Of a stretch of 45,185 nt of DNA, positions 8,210 to 39,719 are shown piece by piece. Made by a program: the position numbers and the translations under genes. Numbering within the stretch: position 1 is the stretch's first letter; each line of letters begins with the position of its first letter. This DNA is from Shewanella violacea DSS12 (lineage in GTDB: Bacteria > Pseudomonadota > Gammaproteobacteria > Enterobacterales > Shewanellaceae): positions 3,125,314 to 3,170,498 of the forward strand of contig NC_014012.1 in the NCBI RefSeq assembly GCF_000091325.1, read 5' to 3'. The notes under the pieces were generated by a model. It saw nothing but the letters and a program-made list of their open reading frames with translations. It did no database searches and was not told the DNA's origin.

Positions 8210-8216
8210 TCGGATT

Positions 8217-8634
8217 AGGATTGAACTATCGAGAAGTCTAAATAGATCTCATTGGCTTCGTCTTCTTCAACAAAACTTGAGAGACATTAGATTAAAGAGA
8301 ATCGACTTTACGCCAATCGATTCCTTCATTATGCATAGACAGACGTTAATCGCCAGATCTAGGATTGAACTATCGAGAAGTCTAAATAGATCTCATTAGC
8401 TTCGTCTTCTTCAACAAAAACTTGAGAGACATTAGATTAAAGAGAATCGACTTTACGCCAATCGATGCCTTCATTATGCATAGACAGACGTTAATCGCCA
8501 GATCTAGGATTGAACTATCGAGAAGTCTAAATAGATCTCATTGGCTTCGTCTTCTTCAACAAAAATTTGGGAGACATTGGATTAAAGAGAACCGACTTTA
8601 CACCAATCGATGCCTTCATTATGCAGCTAGATCT
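8217..8634 (-). repeat. Three decayed tandem copies of the acyP 3' end
   Basis: Units start at 8217, 8361 and 8506, about 144-145 bp apart; the third is shortened. Each begins AGGATTGAACTATCGAG, exactly as at 8724 at the end of the real acyP, and matches acyP for about 105 bp up to CCAATCGAT. Each then carries about 38 bp not from acyP, ending GCCAGATCT (AGATCT in copy 3). Read on the minus strand they spell a recognisable end, with EEDEANEIYLDFSIVQS and a stop. All three share an in-frame TAA where acyP has CTCAATGC, so none can encode the domain. Copies 1 and 2 resemble each other most. Confidence 0.93.
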
Positions 8635-23959: not shown

Positions 23960-23972
23960 AGACATCACAACC

Positions 23973-24246
23973 CAGGCTTTAATCCGTGACCTACACGGAA
24001 GTAAGAAATGCCCTAATGATGCCGGGAGTATCCTCGGCACATGGCGCTCTTTAAGAAAAGTACATAAGTGTTCCAGACACAAGGCAGGTTTTAAACCGTG
24101 ACCTACAAGGAAGTAGGAAATGCCGTAATGATGCCGGGAGCATCGTCGGCACATGGCGCTCTTTAAGAATAGATTGCTTAAGTGTTCCAAACACAACGCA
24201 GGTTTTAAACCGTCCATGGAAACCTGCATAATTGTTCCAGACACAA
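23973..24246. repeat. Tandem repeat of 112-114 bp, 2.4 copies
   Basis: Copies start at 23973, 24085 and 24199 with CAGG(C/T)TTTAA(A/T)CCGT. The first two are near-complete (112 and 114 bp, few differences); the third lacks the middle and forms a short inverted repeat GCAGGTTT/AAACCTGC. Each full unit contains TGATGCCGGGAG...CGGCACATGGCGCTCTTTAAGAA with a GCCG/CGGC hairpin and ends AAGTGTTCCA(G/A)ACACAA. On the minus strand they give a repetitive frame (GLKPALCLEHL) that I regard as non-coding. It looks like a dispersed repeat family rather than a gene-end copy. Confidence 0.9.
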
Positions 24247-36618: not shown

Positions 36619-36665
36619 TATTATCCTTAACTCATTTTTTCAAAAATCAAAAAAAGTCCAAAAAA

Positions 36666-36685
36666 AACCACTCCAATGAGTGGTT
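36666..36685 (-). terminator. Terminator of the 39-residue membrane protein gene
   Basis: On the minus strand AACCACTC and GAGTGGTT pair around ATTG and run into TTTTTT, 55 bp after the small gene's stop and 48 bp before the ybaN start. Confidence 0.92.
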
Positions 36686-36739
36686 AGTCTACCCAAACCT
36701 ATGCTGGGTATCTAGACTTGAATGAGTCTAAAGAATATT

Positions 36740-36859
36740 TTAAATCAGCCCGGCAATTTTCAACCAAGATAAGGTCGCAGGTAAAGTTGGCAGCATCAGG
36801 ACTAAGATGAAACCTATGAAATAGATGATGTTAAATGGATCTTTAAACGGCTTACTCAT
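36740..36859 (-). CDS. Small single-pass membrane protein, 39 residues, unrecognised
   Basis: ATG at 36859 has GAGG 5 nt upstream, and the frame runs 39 codons to TAA at 36742-36740. The product begins MSKPFKDPFN, then a hydrophobic helix at about 11-27 (IIYFIGFILVLMLPTLP), and ends SWLKIAGLI. Positively charged N terminus and a single helix suggest an inner-membrane peptide. It has its own terminator, and a perfect FNR-type palindrome lies just upstream, so it looks like a real regulated gene. I do not recognise the family. Small subunits of respiratory complexes look like this, but nothing here assigns it to one. Confidence 0.75.
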   Translation of the reverse strand: MSKPFKDPFNIIYFIGFILVLMLPTLPATLSWLKIAGLI

Positions 36860-36891
36860 AACTTCCTCACTCAATCTTTTTAATGATTTTA

Positions 36892-36905
36892 TTGATCTAG
36901 ATCAA
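36892..36905. promoter_or_regulatory. Perfect FNR/EtrA-type site upstream of the small membrane protein gene
   Basis: TTGATCTAGATCAA equals the FNR consensus TTGAT-N4-ATCAA. Its centre is 39 bp before the start codon at 36859. The adjoining TAAAAT could be the -10 box. An activator centred at -41.5 would put the transcript start on the start codon, so repression, or activation with an unusual geometry, fits better. EtrA is the Shewanella FNR homologue. Confidence 0.8.
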
Positions 36906-37059
36906 TTTTTTGAAAGCATTATAAAGACTTGACCAGAATTTAGGAAGCGAGTATTTAACCTTTTATCAACTTAAACTCCTTTTGATGATTTATAAGCAGA
37001 AATCTATCGCTCCCATTCTATGGCTTTATCCAGCCCTTTAATGAAAAAGTCCAATCGAC

Positions 37060-37815
37060 TCATTCAACCCCATTAGCCAAGTATTGTTTCACGACCCCCT
37101 TAGCGGCAAGCTCGACTAACATCTGTTTACACCCTTGAGTTAACACTTCATCGTCCATCTGGGGGTAAGTTTGCTTTAGCCAAGTCACTAGATAATCGAA
37201 ATTGACAGATTCATACTGGCACAGGTAACCCAGCGCTTGTGCGGCTAAAGGGTTAAGCTGCAAGAAAATCACTTCATCTTGCTTATCGCGATATAAGCAA
37301 AAATTTAACGGACTCTCGGCGGGTCCATCGGGTCGGTAATCTTCACTCACTCTTTGAACATCAAATCTATATTGCAGCACCTTAGCCGTATCAGACAAAC
37401 ACAGTGCCACTTGCGTTATCGGCCCTTGCATACCTTGGTGTAGGGGATTATCTTTAGCGACTGCGACAACCAACTCCATATATTCATAATGAGCCAATTC
37501 GATAATAAATGCAGGGTCCCCCTCTGTTAACTGATATTCAGACTGGAGGAAACTAACAAATTCCTGAGCTATTTCGATAAAAATCGGTGTCTGACTATCA
37601 TGGGTCACAAAGAATTTTTGGATCAGCGCCAACCAAGCTTCTTCAGCATATAAGCTTTTCAACACGGGAAATGCACTAGAAACAAAGCCATTGATGTTAT
37701 TGAAAAACAGATCCCGGTATATCTTCATCCGCCGAGCTTCTGTGCCCTTAGGCAATGGCCGTGAAGGCTCCTTAATATAATCCATGAAGGATTGTTGAAT
37801 CCTAGTAAAATTCAT
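37060..37815 (-). CDS. hvfC: DUF2063 (BufC/HvfC-type) RiPP maturation partner
   Basis: The 251-residue protein has the DUF2063 N-terminal helical domain (PKGTEARRMKIYRDLFFNNINGFVSSAFP) and the acidic HYEYMELVV segment. These proteins act with DUF692 enzymes and are thought to deliver the precursor peptide to them. The start overlaps the hvfB stop. ATG at 37815 has AAGGAG 6 nt upstream; ATG at 37818, one codon earlier, is possible but too close. The overlap implies translational coupling. No DoxX-type BufD gene follows within 400 bp. Confidence 0.88.
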   Translation of the reverse strand: MNFTRIQQSFMDYIKEPSRPLPKGTEARRMKIYRDLFFNNINGFVSSAFPVLKSLYAEEAWLALIQKFFVTHDSQTPIFIEIAQEFVSFLQSEYQLTEGDPAFIIELAHYEYMELVVAVAKDNPLHQGMQGPITQVALCLSDTAKVLQYRFDVQRVSEDYRPDGPAESPLNFCLYRDKQDEVIFLQLNPLAAQALGYLCQYESVNFDYLVTWLKQTYPQMDDEVLTQGCKQMLVELAAKGVVKQYLANGVE

Positions 37816-38651
37816 CATGCACTCCTTGAACGTTGACACAAGCCTGTCTCTTGATAGCGATGAATTTTATCTATCTCCTTTAGCAGTACAGGAGTTTGAG
37901 GAATATTAAAATCCCTCTCTAACAAGGTAGGATGCACGCCATGTATTTGGTAACAGGTTTGAAGTAACTGCCATACCGATGACACAATATCTGCGCCATG
38001 GGTATCGACTATGATATCTTTTGCCTCTTCAAAATGGCCTGCGATATGGATATAAGCGACGCGCTCAGTCGGCATAGCCTTTAAAAAATCATCGGCATCG
38101 TATTGATGATTAATTGAATTAACATAGATGTTATTCACATCAAGAAGCATTTTACAATCAGCTTCACTAAGCACTGCAGTGACAAATTCGAGTTCACTCA
38201 TCTCGGCCCCCGGCGCCGTGTAAAAAGAAACATTCTCCAAGATAAGCGGCCTCTCTAGAATATCTTCTACCTGTTTAACACGCTTAACCACATGCTTAAC
38301 CGCCTCCTGAGTAAAAGGAATGGGCATAAGATCATACATATGTCCGCTACCCGAACAGTAGCTAAGATGTTCGGAGTAAACCTCGATATTATGCTCATCC
38401 ATAAAGGCTTTCACATTTTTAACCAAGTCGATATCTAAGGGTGCAGGCCCACCGATAGACAGAGATAAGCCATGACAGAAGAAAGGTTTACTCTCGGTTA
38501 GTTGCCTAAATTGTCGGCCATACTTTCCCCCTAAGGTCATCCAGTTCTCAGGCGCAACCTCGAAGAAATCGATAGCATCGGGAATAGCGTCGCAAAATTC
38601 ATCCAACATCTCACGCCTCAAACCTAATCCCACCTTGGCTCGCTCAATCAT
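37815..38651 (-). CDS. hvfB: DUF692 multinuclear iron RiPP maturase (BufB/HvfB type)
   Basis: DUF692 (MNIO) enzymes use two or three iron ions to rewrite cysteines of precursor peptides into oxazolone/thioamide or thiooxazole groups. The 278-residue protein has the family's metal-ligand blocks: FFEVAPENW, HGLSLSIGG, YSEHLSYCSG, LENVSFYT, LLDVNNIYVNS, IHIAGHFE, DTHGADI and LLERDFNIP. ATG at 38651 has GGAG 5 nt upstream; a TTG at 38663 precedes that site. It lies 137 bp behind the precursor and overlaps hvfC by a base or more, so the three form one operon. Confidence 0.92.
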   Translation of the reverse strand: MIERAKVGLGLRREMLDEFCDAIPDAIDFFEVAPENWMTLGGKYGRQFRQLTESKPFFCHGLSLSIGGPAPLDIDLVKNVKAFMDEHNIEVYSEHLSYCSGSGHMYDLMPIPFTQEAVKHVVKRVKQVEDILERPLILENVSFYTAPGAEMSELEFVTAVLSEADCKMLLDVNNIYVNSINHQYDADDFLKAMPTERVAYIHIAGHFEEAKDIIVDTHGADIVSSVWQLLQTCYQIHGVHPTLLERDFNIPQTPVLLKEIDKIHRYQETGLCQRSRSA

Positions 38652-38710
38652 ATTCACTCCCAAAAGCCTCTGCTAATTATAGAAAATGTCAGCGTTATAC
38701 TCGCATAAGA

Positions 38711-38744
38711 ACATTTAAGGCCAGTAAACACCGGCCTTAAATGT
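38711..38744 (-). terminator. Hairpin between the RiPP precursor and maturase genes (attenuator candidate)
   Basis: ACATTTAAGGCC and GGCCTTAAATGT form a perfect 12-bp stem around a 10-nt loop, 44 bp after the precursor stop and 59 bp before hvfB. On the minus strand only a mixed TTCTT follows, so termination should be partial, or the hairpin could protect the upstream message. Confidence 0.7.
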
Positions 38745-38788
38745 CTAATCACTATTGCAAAATCTGCTCCGCAATAGATAATAATGAT

Positions 38789-39289
38789 TTACATGTCACT
38801 GCCACACTTGCCCTCTTTGGCCTTCTTCATATCGCCGCCACACTTGCCTTCTGCAGCCTTCTTCATGTCGCCGCCACACTTGCCTTCTGCAGCCTTCTTC
38901 ATGTCGCCGCCACACTTGCCTTCTGCAACCTTCTTCATGTCGCCGCCACACTTACCTTCTGCAGCCTTCTTCATGTCGCCGCCACACTTGCCTTCTGCAG
39001 CCTTCTTCATGTCGCCGCCACACTTGCCTTCTGCAGCCTTCTTCATGTCACCGCCACATTTTCCTTCACCACACTTGCCCTCTTTCCCCTTCTTCATGTC
39101 GTCGCCACACTTACCTTCTTTGCCCTTCTTCATGTCGCCGCCACACTTACCTTCTCCATCCACTAGTTGGTAGCCAGCTTCCATCTGACTAAAACCAAAT
39201 GGGTTAGCTTGCGCCTCACCTGCAAATGCAGAGCCGATAACAACGGTACCTAGGGCGGCAGCAATAGCTGTCTTTTTAACTAAATTCAT
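38789..39289 (-). CDS. hvfA: RiPP precursor of the bufferin/HvfA type with eleven EGKCG motifs
   Basis: The 166-residue product begins with a Sec signal (residues 1-23 or 1-28, VKKTAIAAALGTVVIGSAFA), so it is exported. From residue 46 it is built of eleven EGKCG motifs, seven of them in exact 12-residue units EGKCGGDMKKxx. All eleven cysteines sit in these motifs. Proteins with EGKCG cores are modified by DUF692/DUF2063 pairs, which follow here, and bind copper in the periplasm. Family members I know usually carry fewer motifs. ATG at 39289 has AAGGA 7 nt upstream; an earlier in-frame start at 39331 is unsupported. Confidence 0.9.
   Translation of the reverse strand: MNLVKKTAIAAALGTVVIGSAFAGEAQANPFGFSQMEAGYQLVDGEGKCGGDMKKGKEGKCGDDMKKGKEGKCGEGKCGGDMKKAAEGKCGGDMKKAAEGKCGGDMKKAAEGKCGGDMKKVAEGKCGGDMKKAAEGKCGGDMKKAAEGKCGGDMKKAKEGKCGSDM
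38816..39067 (-). repeat. Seven 36-bp tandem repeats encoding EGKCGGDMKKxx
   Basis: Units of 36 bp (core GAAGGCAAGTGTGGCGGCGA, minus strand) are nearly identical at the DNA level, including synonymous positions, which points to recent unit expansion or gene conversion. Partial and variant units flank them (39068-39154 and 38792-38815). The only internal coding change is GCA to GTT at one Ala. Confidence 0.95.
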
Positions 39290-39322: not shown

Positions 39323-39719
39323 GGTTACCAACCAAACTTCATCTCAGCTGGCTTGCATAAATAGACCTGACCTAACTAAAATCTATTTCAAAAAAATAAC
39401 AAAGATCACATTTACGCTCCATTAGTGAGTAAGCAATAAGTAAACCTAAGATAAATAATCCAATATATTCAGCGCATAAGCATATTGTTATCAATTTAAA
39501 GCTTAACAAGATAAACAAATTTTGAATCACTTCTCATCATAAGTTAAAATGCTGCCCGCGCTAGCTATAGGTGTGATGTTCGATGCACCTAAATCAAGCA
39601 AAGCAGATTTCACTGGGCTGCGTGCCAATAATCGATATTTTTATTACTTTAGCCATGCTAGGCGACAAATAGACTGACACTATGAATCCGACAAGAATGA
39701 CCCAGACAAGAACAAAACC
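39323..39719. other. Divergent gap between hvfA and dusC
   Basis: About 400 bp of AT-rich non-coding DNA. A TGTGA half site occurs near 39409 on the minus strand. A GCTAGC and nearby GTGTGATGTTCGATGCACC occur near 39560-39588. Promoters for both genes must be in it. I see no gene or RNA. Confidence 0.4.

Follow-up and report, generated by a model that had tools for sequence, protein, structure and literature searches.

A probable HvfABC (oxazolin-type) operon with widely spaced EGKCG motifs in Shewanella violacea DSS12

The 45,185-nucleotide stretch of the Shewanella violacea DSS12 genome analyzed here (NC_014012.1, positions 3,125,314 to 3,170,498; hereafter, the window) carries on its minus strand the genes hvfA, hvfB, and hvfC, in that order from position 39289 to position 37060 (Table 1). 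This cluster is very probably an HvfABC operon of the oxazolin, or EGKCG captophorin, kind, responsible for an exported copper-binding thiooxazole peptide. hvfA encodes a precursor in which every Cys residue lies in an EGKCG motif, hvfB encodes an MNIO (DUF692) maturase, and hvfC encodes its DUF2063 partner. The family is already known. The number of motifs, which an earlier reading of the DNA letters (the sequence-only reading) had put forward as novel, is an ordinary one for this family; the only mildly unusual trait is how far apart the repeats lie.

The hvfA product has 166 residues, counted from an ATG codon; a longer form from an alternative TTG start is possible. The average mass calculated for the unmodified precursor is 16,644 Da at full length, and it would be 14,416 or 13,959 Da if the signal were cleaved at AFA or AQA, respectively. 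Its N terminus, MNLVKKTAIAAALGTVVIGSAFAGEAQA, is Sec-like as judged by eye, in keeping with the earlier description of the precursor as secreted. The 11 EGKCG motifs announced in the sequence-only reading are present and account for all 11 Cys residues; in 20,000 shuffles of the precursor residues, EGKCG never appears more than twice. The successive Cys-to-Cys spacings are 12, 12, 5, 12, 12, 12, 12, 12, 12, and 12 residues. Nine of the motifs are isolated, i.e., have no second motif within 6 residues, and there is one doublet (EGKCGEGKCG). The C terminus reads KEGKCGSDM. The corresponding tandem array of 36-bp units, which are nearly identical at the DNA level, has a score of 468 in Tandem Repeats Finder (TRF). 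Units 4 to 10 are indeed seven consecutive 12-residue units, as had been stated, but only five of these are identical (EGKCGGDMKKAA), with one containing Val in place of Ala and one ending in Lys.

The two enzyme genes had been predicted as DUF692 and DUF2063 genes with overlapping ends, and this is what is found: hvfB and hvfC overlap in the sequence ATGA, with an AAGGAG ribosome site directly before the overlap, inside hvfB. The best of the four matches of the hvfB product to solved structures is 3BWW, aligned over residues 5 to 274 in two stretches. The two proteins share the motifs HG, S-(D/E)-H, EN, LDVNNIYVN, IHIAGH, VDTHG, and LLERDF. In HvfB of Haemophilus influenzae, N175, D242, and H244 are essential (PMC13419390), and the likely counterparts of all three, mapped by eye, are present in the window HvfB.

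The label given to the cluster in the sequence-only reading, a bufferin-type operon for a ribosomally synthesized and post-translationally modified peptide, is right in that MNIO and DUF2063 genes lie beside a gene for an exported EGKCG precursor. However, the cluster is of the Hvf/oxazolin type. Both enzymes pass the cut-offs of the HvfB and HvfC models (Table 1), whereas the score of the MNIO with the BufB equivalog NF050167 is 268.6 bits, under the cut-off of 310, and a Pfam scan at an E value of 0.01 finds no DUF2282 domain (PF10048) in the precursor. A published survey keeps its Buf_EGKCG/oxazolin group apart from the “bona fide bufferins” Buf1 and Buf2 (PMC12452194). A DUF2282-type (Buf1) operon, which is one way to understand the earlier label, would employ the same enzyme superfamilies and, according to PMC13097082, the same thiooxazole chemistry. 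Buf1 bufferins also resemble the window system in combining MNIO and DUF2063 proteins with an exported Cys-containing peptide, but their precursor belongs to a different family (PMC12452194), and in view of the model scores this assignment is very unlikely. A separate cluster in the same genome (L002, positions 209 to 2594) encodes a DUF2282 precursor, a BufB-like MNIO, a DUF2063 protein, and an extracytoplasmic function (ECF)-type sigma factor. The MNIO of that cluster scores higher with the BufB model (308.4 bits, just under the cut-off) than with the HvfB model (246.5 bits). Thus, the bufferin-type (DUF2282) cluster of S. violacea is located elsewhere in the genome, and the one in the window is of the other kind.

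By analogy with the characterized homologues, HvfA would be synthesized with a signal peptide that doubles as the leader and would be bound in the cytoplasm by a complex of HvfB, a diiron MNIO, with HvfC, its RRE partner. The Cys residues of the EGKCG motifs would be oxidized to 5-thiooxazoles, with a mass change of -4 Da each. Sec would then carry the modified HvfA to the periplasm, and there its numerous sulfur groups would bind and buffer copper. HvfBC is reported to convert Cys residues of HvfA to 5-thiooxazoles through a mixed-valent diiron site, preferring HvfA with its signal peptide still attached, and copper binding is reported for the product (PMC13419390). 5-Thiooxazoles and Cu binding are described for fontiphorin, oxazolin, and gonophorin (PMC13097082, PMC13419390), with seven 5-thiooxazole groups in fontiphorin (PMC13097082). 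The earlier statement that DUF692/DUF2063 pairs modify EGKCG peptides and that the products bind copper is therefore in line with the literature, where the group appears as copper-binding thiooxazole peptides.

Several observations weigh against this assignment and the function proposed for HvfA. With the narrow, Haemophilus-like HvfA equivalog NF050188, the precursor scores 35.7 bits (cut-off, 95), while it passes the threshold of the HvfA-family domain (Table 1), so that it is a member of the HvfA family and not an HvfA equivalog. A DoxX-like hvfX gene, which is part of most published clusters in various arrangements but is not universal (PMC12452194), is absent from the window cluster, and the two DoxX matches in the genome lie outside the window. 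No DoxX look-alike is seen among the 40 largest open reading frame (ORF) clusters of 126 Shewanella loci (smaller clusters were not viewed, and none was scanned with profiles). AlphaFold2, run on the window sequence with 35 of 120 listed homologues, predicts no confident fold for the precursor (mean predicted local distance difference test [pLDDT] score, 45; predicted template modeling [pTM] score, 0.13), unlike the beta-helix published for a protein with 17-residue repeats (PMC12452194). The Microbulbifer homologues gave no detection with added copper, and that system conferred slight growth protection in Escherichia coli, with the authors hesitating over copper protection (PMC12538549). Finally, FonBC of the fontiphorin system modifies a two-motif peptide but not a one-motif peptide (PMC13097082), so that most of the sites in the window might stay thiols. 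Modification of the nine isolated motifs as well as of the doublet is thus uncertain.

HvfABC/oxazolin of H. influenzae, like the window cluster, has an MNIO and a DUF2063 partner over the Hvf cut-offs, a signal peptide, and repeated EGKCG motifs, but these form three AEGKCGEGKCG doublets (6 Cys residues) and hvfX is present, as opposed to 11 Cys residues, one doublet, and no DoxX in the window cluster (PMC13419390). The Buf_EGKCG/oxazolin type 1 systems share the signal peptide, the many EGKCG motifs, and the MNIO and DUF2063 genes; they differ in the 17-residue, two-motif unit, whereas the window precursor has mostly 12-residue, one-motif units and no predicted fold (PMC12452194). The captophorins fontiphorin and gonophorin are likewise made from EGKCG precursors by MNIO-DUF2063 pairs, but FonBC leaves a one-motif peptide unmodified (PMC13097082), and the Shewanella enzymes may or may not accept isolated motifs. 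MmrABC/bulbicupramide from Microbulbifer has a precursor of EGKCG units, MNIO and DUF2063 genes, and, like the window cluster, no protease gene nearby. However, its precursors have 5 to 8 Cys residues in EGKCG units, arranged as three two-Cys cassettes in the strain studied, compared to 11 mostly isolated ones here (PMC12538549).

HvfB scores over the cut-off in 126 of 129 Shewanella genomes, including that of the window. A survey of one HvfB locus per genome, the one over the cut-off, covers 125 loci besides the window. All of them encode an EGKCG-bearing precursor, counting one (L101) that was read by eye. The median number of motifs is 10 (range, 2 to 14), and 46 of the 125 loci have at least 11. 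The same is true of 13 of the 17 nearest loci in a tree of HvfB and HvfC. In print, about 2,000 such precursors have been described, the longest with 58 Cys residues (PMC12452194). The sequence-only reading had itself named a survey of motif counts in the precursor family as the test of its novelty, and this survey, with 11 motifs common among close relatives, refutes it. Individual counts may be affected by repeat collapse in fragmented assemblies; in addition, locus L115 is interrupted by a contig end, and L038 offers two candidates and an implausible length of 329 residues. A protein-match search, whose length limits restrict the motif numbers that it can reveal, found at least 11 EGKCG motifs in 3 of the 120 proteins listed among 3,852 matches. 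A scan for the HvfA domain in 60 relatives was positive in 40 genomes. No publication on the EGKCG operon in Shewanella turned up among the matches listed in a literature search.

The published Buf_EGKCG repeat unit consists of 17 residues with two motifs (PMC12452194). In the window, this doublet unit, EGKCGEGKCGGDMKKAA, is mostly shortened to the 12-residue unit with one motif fewer, so that the precursor has one 17-residue unit and otherwise only 12-residue single-motif units. Motif spacing was scored in 125 loci, with precursor starts set by a rule requiring a minimum of 3 motifs. The share of isolated motifs in the window precursor (9 of 11) is the highest in this set; L053, a relative with doublets only, has 12 motifs and none isolated. 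Half or more of the motifs are isolated in 17 of the 125 loci, which places the window at the end of a gradient. The loci rich in isolated motifs include some that are distant in the tree (L033 to L035, L044, L134, and L140), and this scatter indicates that the isolated state either has multiple origins or changes readily. The near relative L101 is below the rule and was scored separately, by eye: it has two EGKCG motifs, both isolated (2 of 2), and retains hvfB and hvfC. The assembly of that genome consists of about 180 contigs, so that the repeat may have collapsed.

Among the 1,230 Cys residues found beyond residue 30 of the precursors in the 125 loci, all are followed by Gly, and all but one have Glu at position -3. 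Throughout the genus, EGKCG persists despite changes in linkers and codons, so the array is more than an artifact of the DNA. Alternatively, the precursor could be a low-complexity repeat protein that the MNIO does not modify, with an array kept by DNA repeat expansion alone; this would be consistent with the near identity of the units in DNA and with the variation of their number and spacing among relatives. However, in loci where hvfB and hvfC are also present, EGKCG is retained even though its codons vary synonymously, which makes this alternative extremely improbable.

The residue preceding Cys is other than Lys in 26 of the 209 isolated motifs but in only 1 of the 1,021 paired ones (genus-wide counts that ignore the kinship of the sequences), suggesting that isolated motifs are under a somewhat different constraint. 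In this position, FonBC tolerates Ala, Arg, and Thr and accepts Phe or Glu poorly (PMC13097082). This bias, together with the failure of FonBC to act on a one-motif peptide, could mean that the doublet, perhaps with a few neighbors, is alone modified and that the isolated motifs stay free thiols, resulting in a mainly thiol chain that resembles a metallothionein and has one or two thiooxazoles. Such an outcome is doubtful. In the 18-locus clade that includes the window, each of the 78 isolated motifs is a perfect EGKCG; L101 keeps both hvfB and hvfC with just its two isolated motifs, subject to the possible repeat collapse; and the peptide offered to FonBC had no second motif at all, whereas the next motif in the window precursor is 12 residues away. 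It is possible, as a tentative proposal, that the maturase of this Shewanella clade has adapted to EGKCG motifs that stand alone every 12 residues and makes evenly spaced single thiooxazoles instead of pairs. If this is true, the resulting chain of single thiooxazoles would bind copper in a different geometry, at sites formed between units or between chains.

As such, the operon adds little to the family, being nearly universal in Shewanella and having a typical motif count. Its use lies in the natural substrate panel provided by the 18-locus clade, where the enzymes are homologous and the precursors have 2 to 14 motifs, 0 to 9 of them isolated. With such a panel, it can readily be asked if paired motifs are a requirement of MNIO maturases and how the copper stoichiometry depends on motif spacing.

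Table 1. Features of the hvf locus, in coordinates of the window
Feature	Position	Strand	Description
hvfA-type precursor gene	38789..39289 (including stop)	-	NF050137 HvfA-family domain, 77.4 bits (cut-off, 19.5), 6 stretches
Repeat array inside hvfA	38792..39155	-	36-bp (12-residue) repeat; TRF rows 38792-39067 and 39069-39155, period 36
hvfB	37815..38651	-	DUF692/MNIO maturase, 278 aa; PF05114, 357 bits; NF003818 HvfB, 439.9 bits (cut-off, 360); 3BWW, E value 7.6e-74
hvfC	37060..37818	-	DUF2063/RRE partner, 252 aa; PF09836, 90.3 bits; NF050145 HvfC, 271.1 bits (cut-off, 142); 3DEE, E value 2.2e-9
Hairpin between hvfA and hvfB	38711..38744	-	12-bp perfect arms, 10-nt loop; conserved stem
Conserved upstream block	39346..39371	-	GTCAGGTCTATTTATGCAAGCCAGCT; starts 82 bases upstream of the hvfA start
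Microprotein ORF	36740-36859	-	39 aa; one hydrophobic stretch by eye, MSKPFKDPFNIIYFIGFILVLMLPTLPATLSWLKIAGLI

Two noncoding elements accompany the operon. The gap between hvfA and hvfB contains a perfect stem of at least 8 pairs in 81 of 125 loci, compared to 2 of 125 sequences when each locus is shuffled once by mononucleotide (the 170 bases considered can reach into hvfB). This hairpin is a possible attenuator or RNA stabilizer that would favor the precursor over the enzyme. In some relatives, it is trailed by T-rich tails, resembling a leaky terminator. Rfam yields no match above the gathering scores within the window. Upstream of hvfA, the conserved block is found in 15 aligned loci of the clade, and its loose core, GGTC(T/A)...G(C/T)C, is seen in 107 of 124 loci (at 64 to 84 bases before the start in 105), versus 0 of 124 shuffled sequences. 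The block was considered as a regulon marker and rejected as such; the S. violacea genome has one exact copy and one more with 3 mismatches, and no regulator is inferred.

The gene order around the operon is stable. hvfB and hvfC are present in all 126 loci, with a divergent dusC upstream in 121, DUF454 downstream in 122, and apt in 119. The sequence-only reading extended the operon over positions 36619 to 39289. The three genes are there but cover only 37060 to 39289, and the remainder, 36619 to 37059, holds the ORF of a microprotein that probably does not belong to the operon. No Pfam or NCBIfam model matches the microprotein, whose ORF lies after hvfC in 120 of the 126 Shewanella loci. It is found in 61 of the 197 genomes sampled from the order, often beside apt/dnaX. 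Outside the genus, its neighborhood was viewed in 17 loci (L173 to L189) of 48 matches: four have hvfB and hvfC just upstream, nine have DUF454/apt/dnaX and no hvf gene within 1.5 kb, three have dusC, apt, and dnaX but lack hvf genes, and one gave no match. The microprotein thus tracks the apt-dnaX neighborhood and is rejected as a fourth member of the hvf operon, although a link in some lineages is possible. A terminator-like hairpin (36685-36666) follows it. Elsewhere in the window, TRF reports two further tandem arrays, one at 8216-8625 (145-bp unit, 2.8 copies, 96% matches) and one at 23966-24213 (112-bp unit, 2.2 copies, 88% matches).

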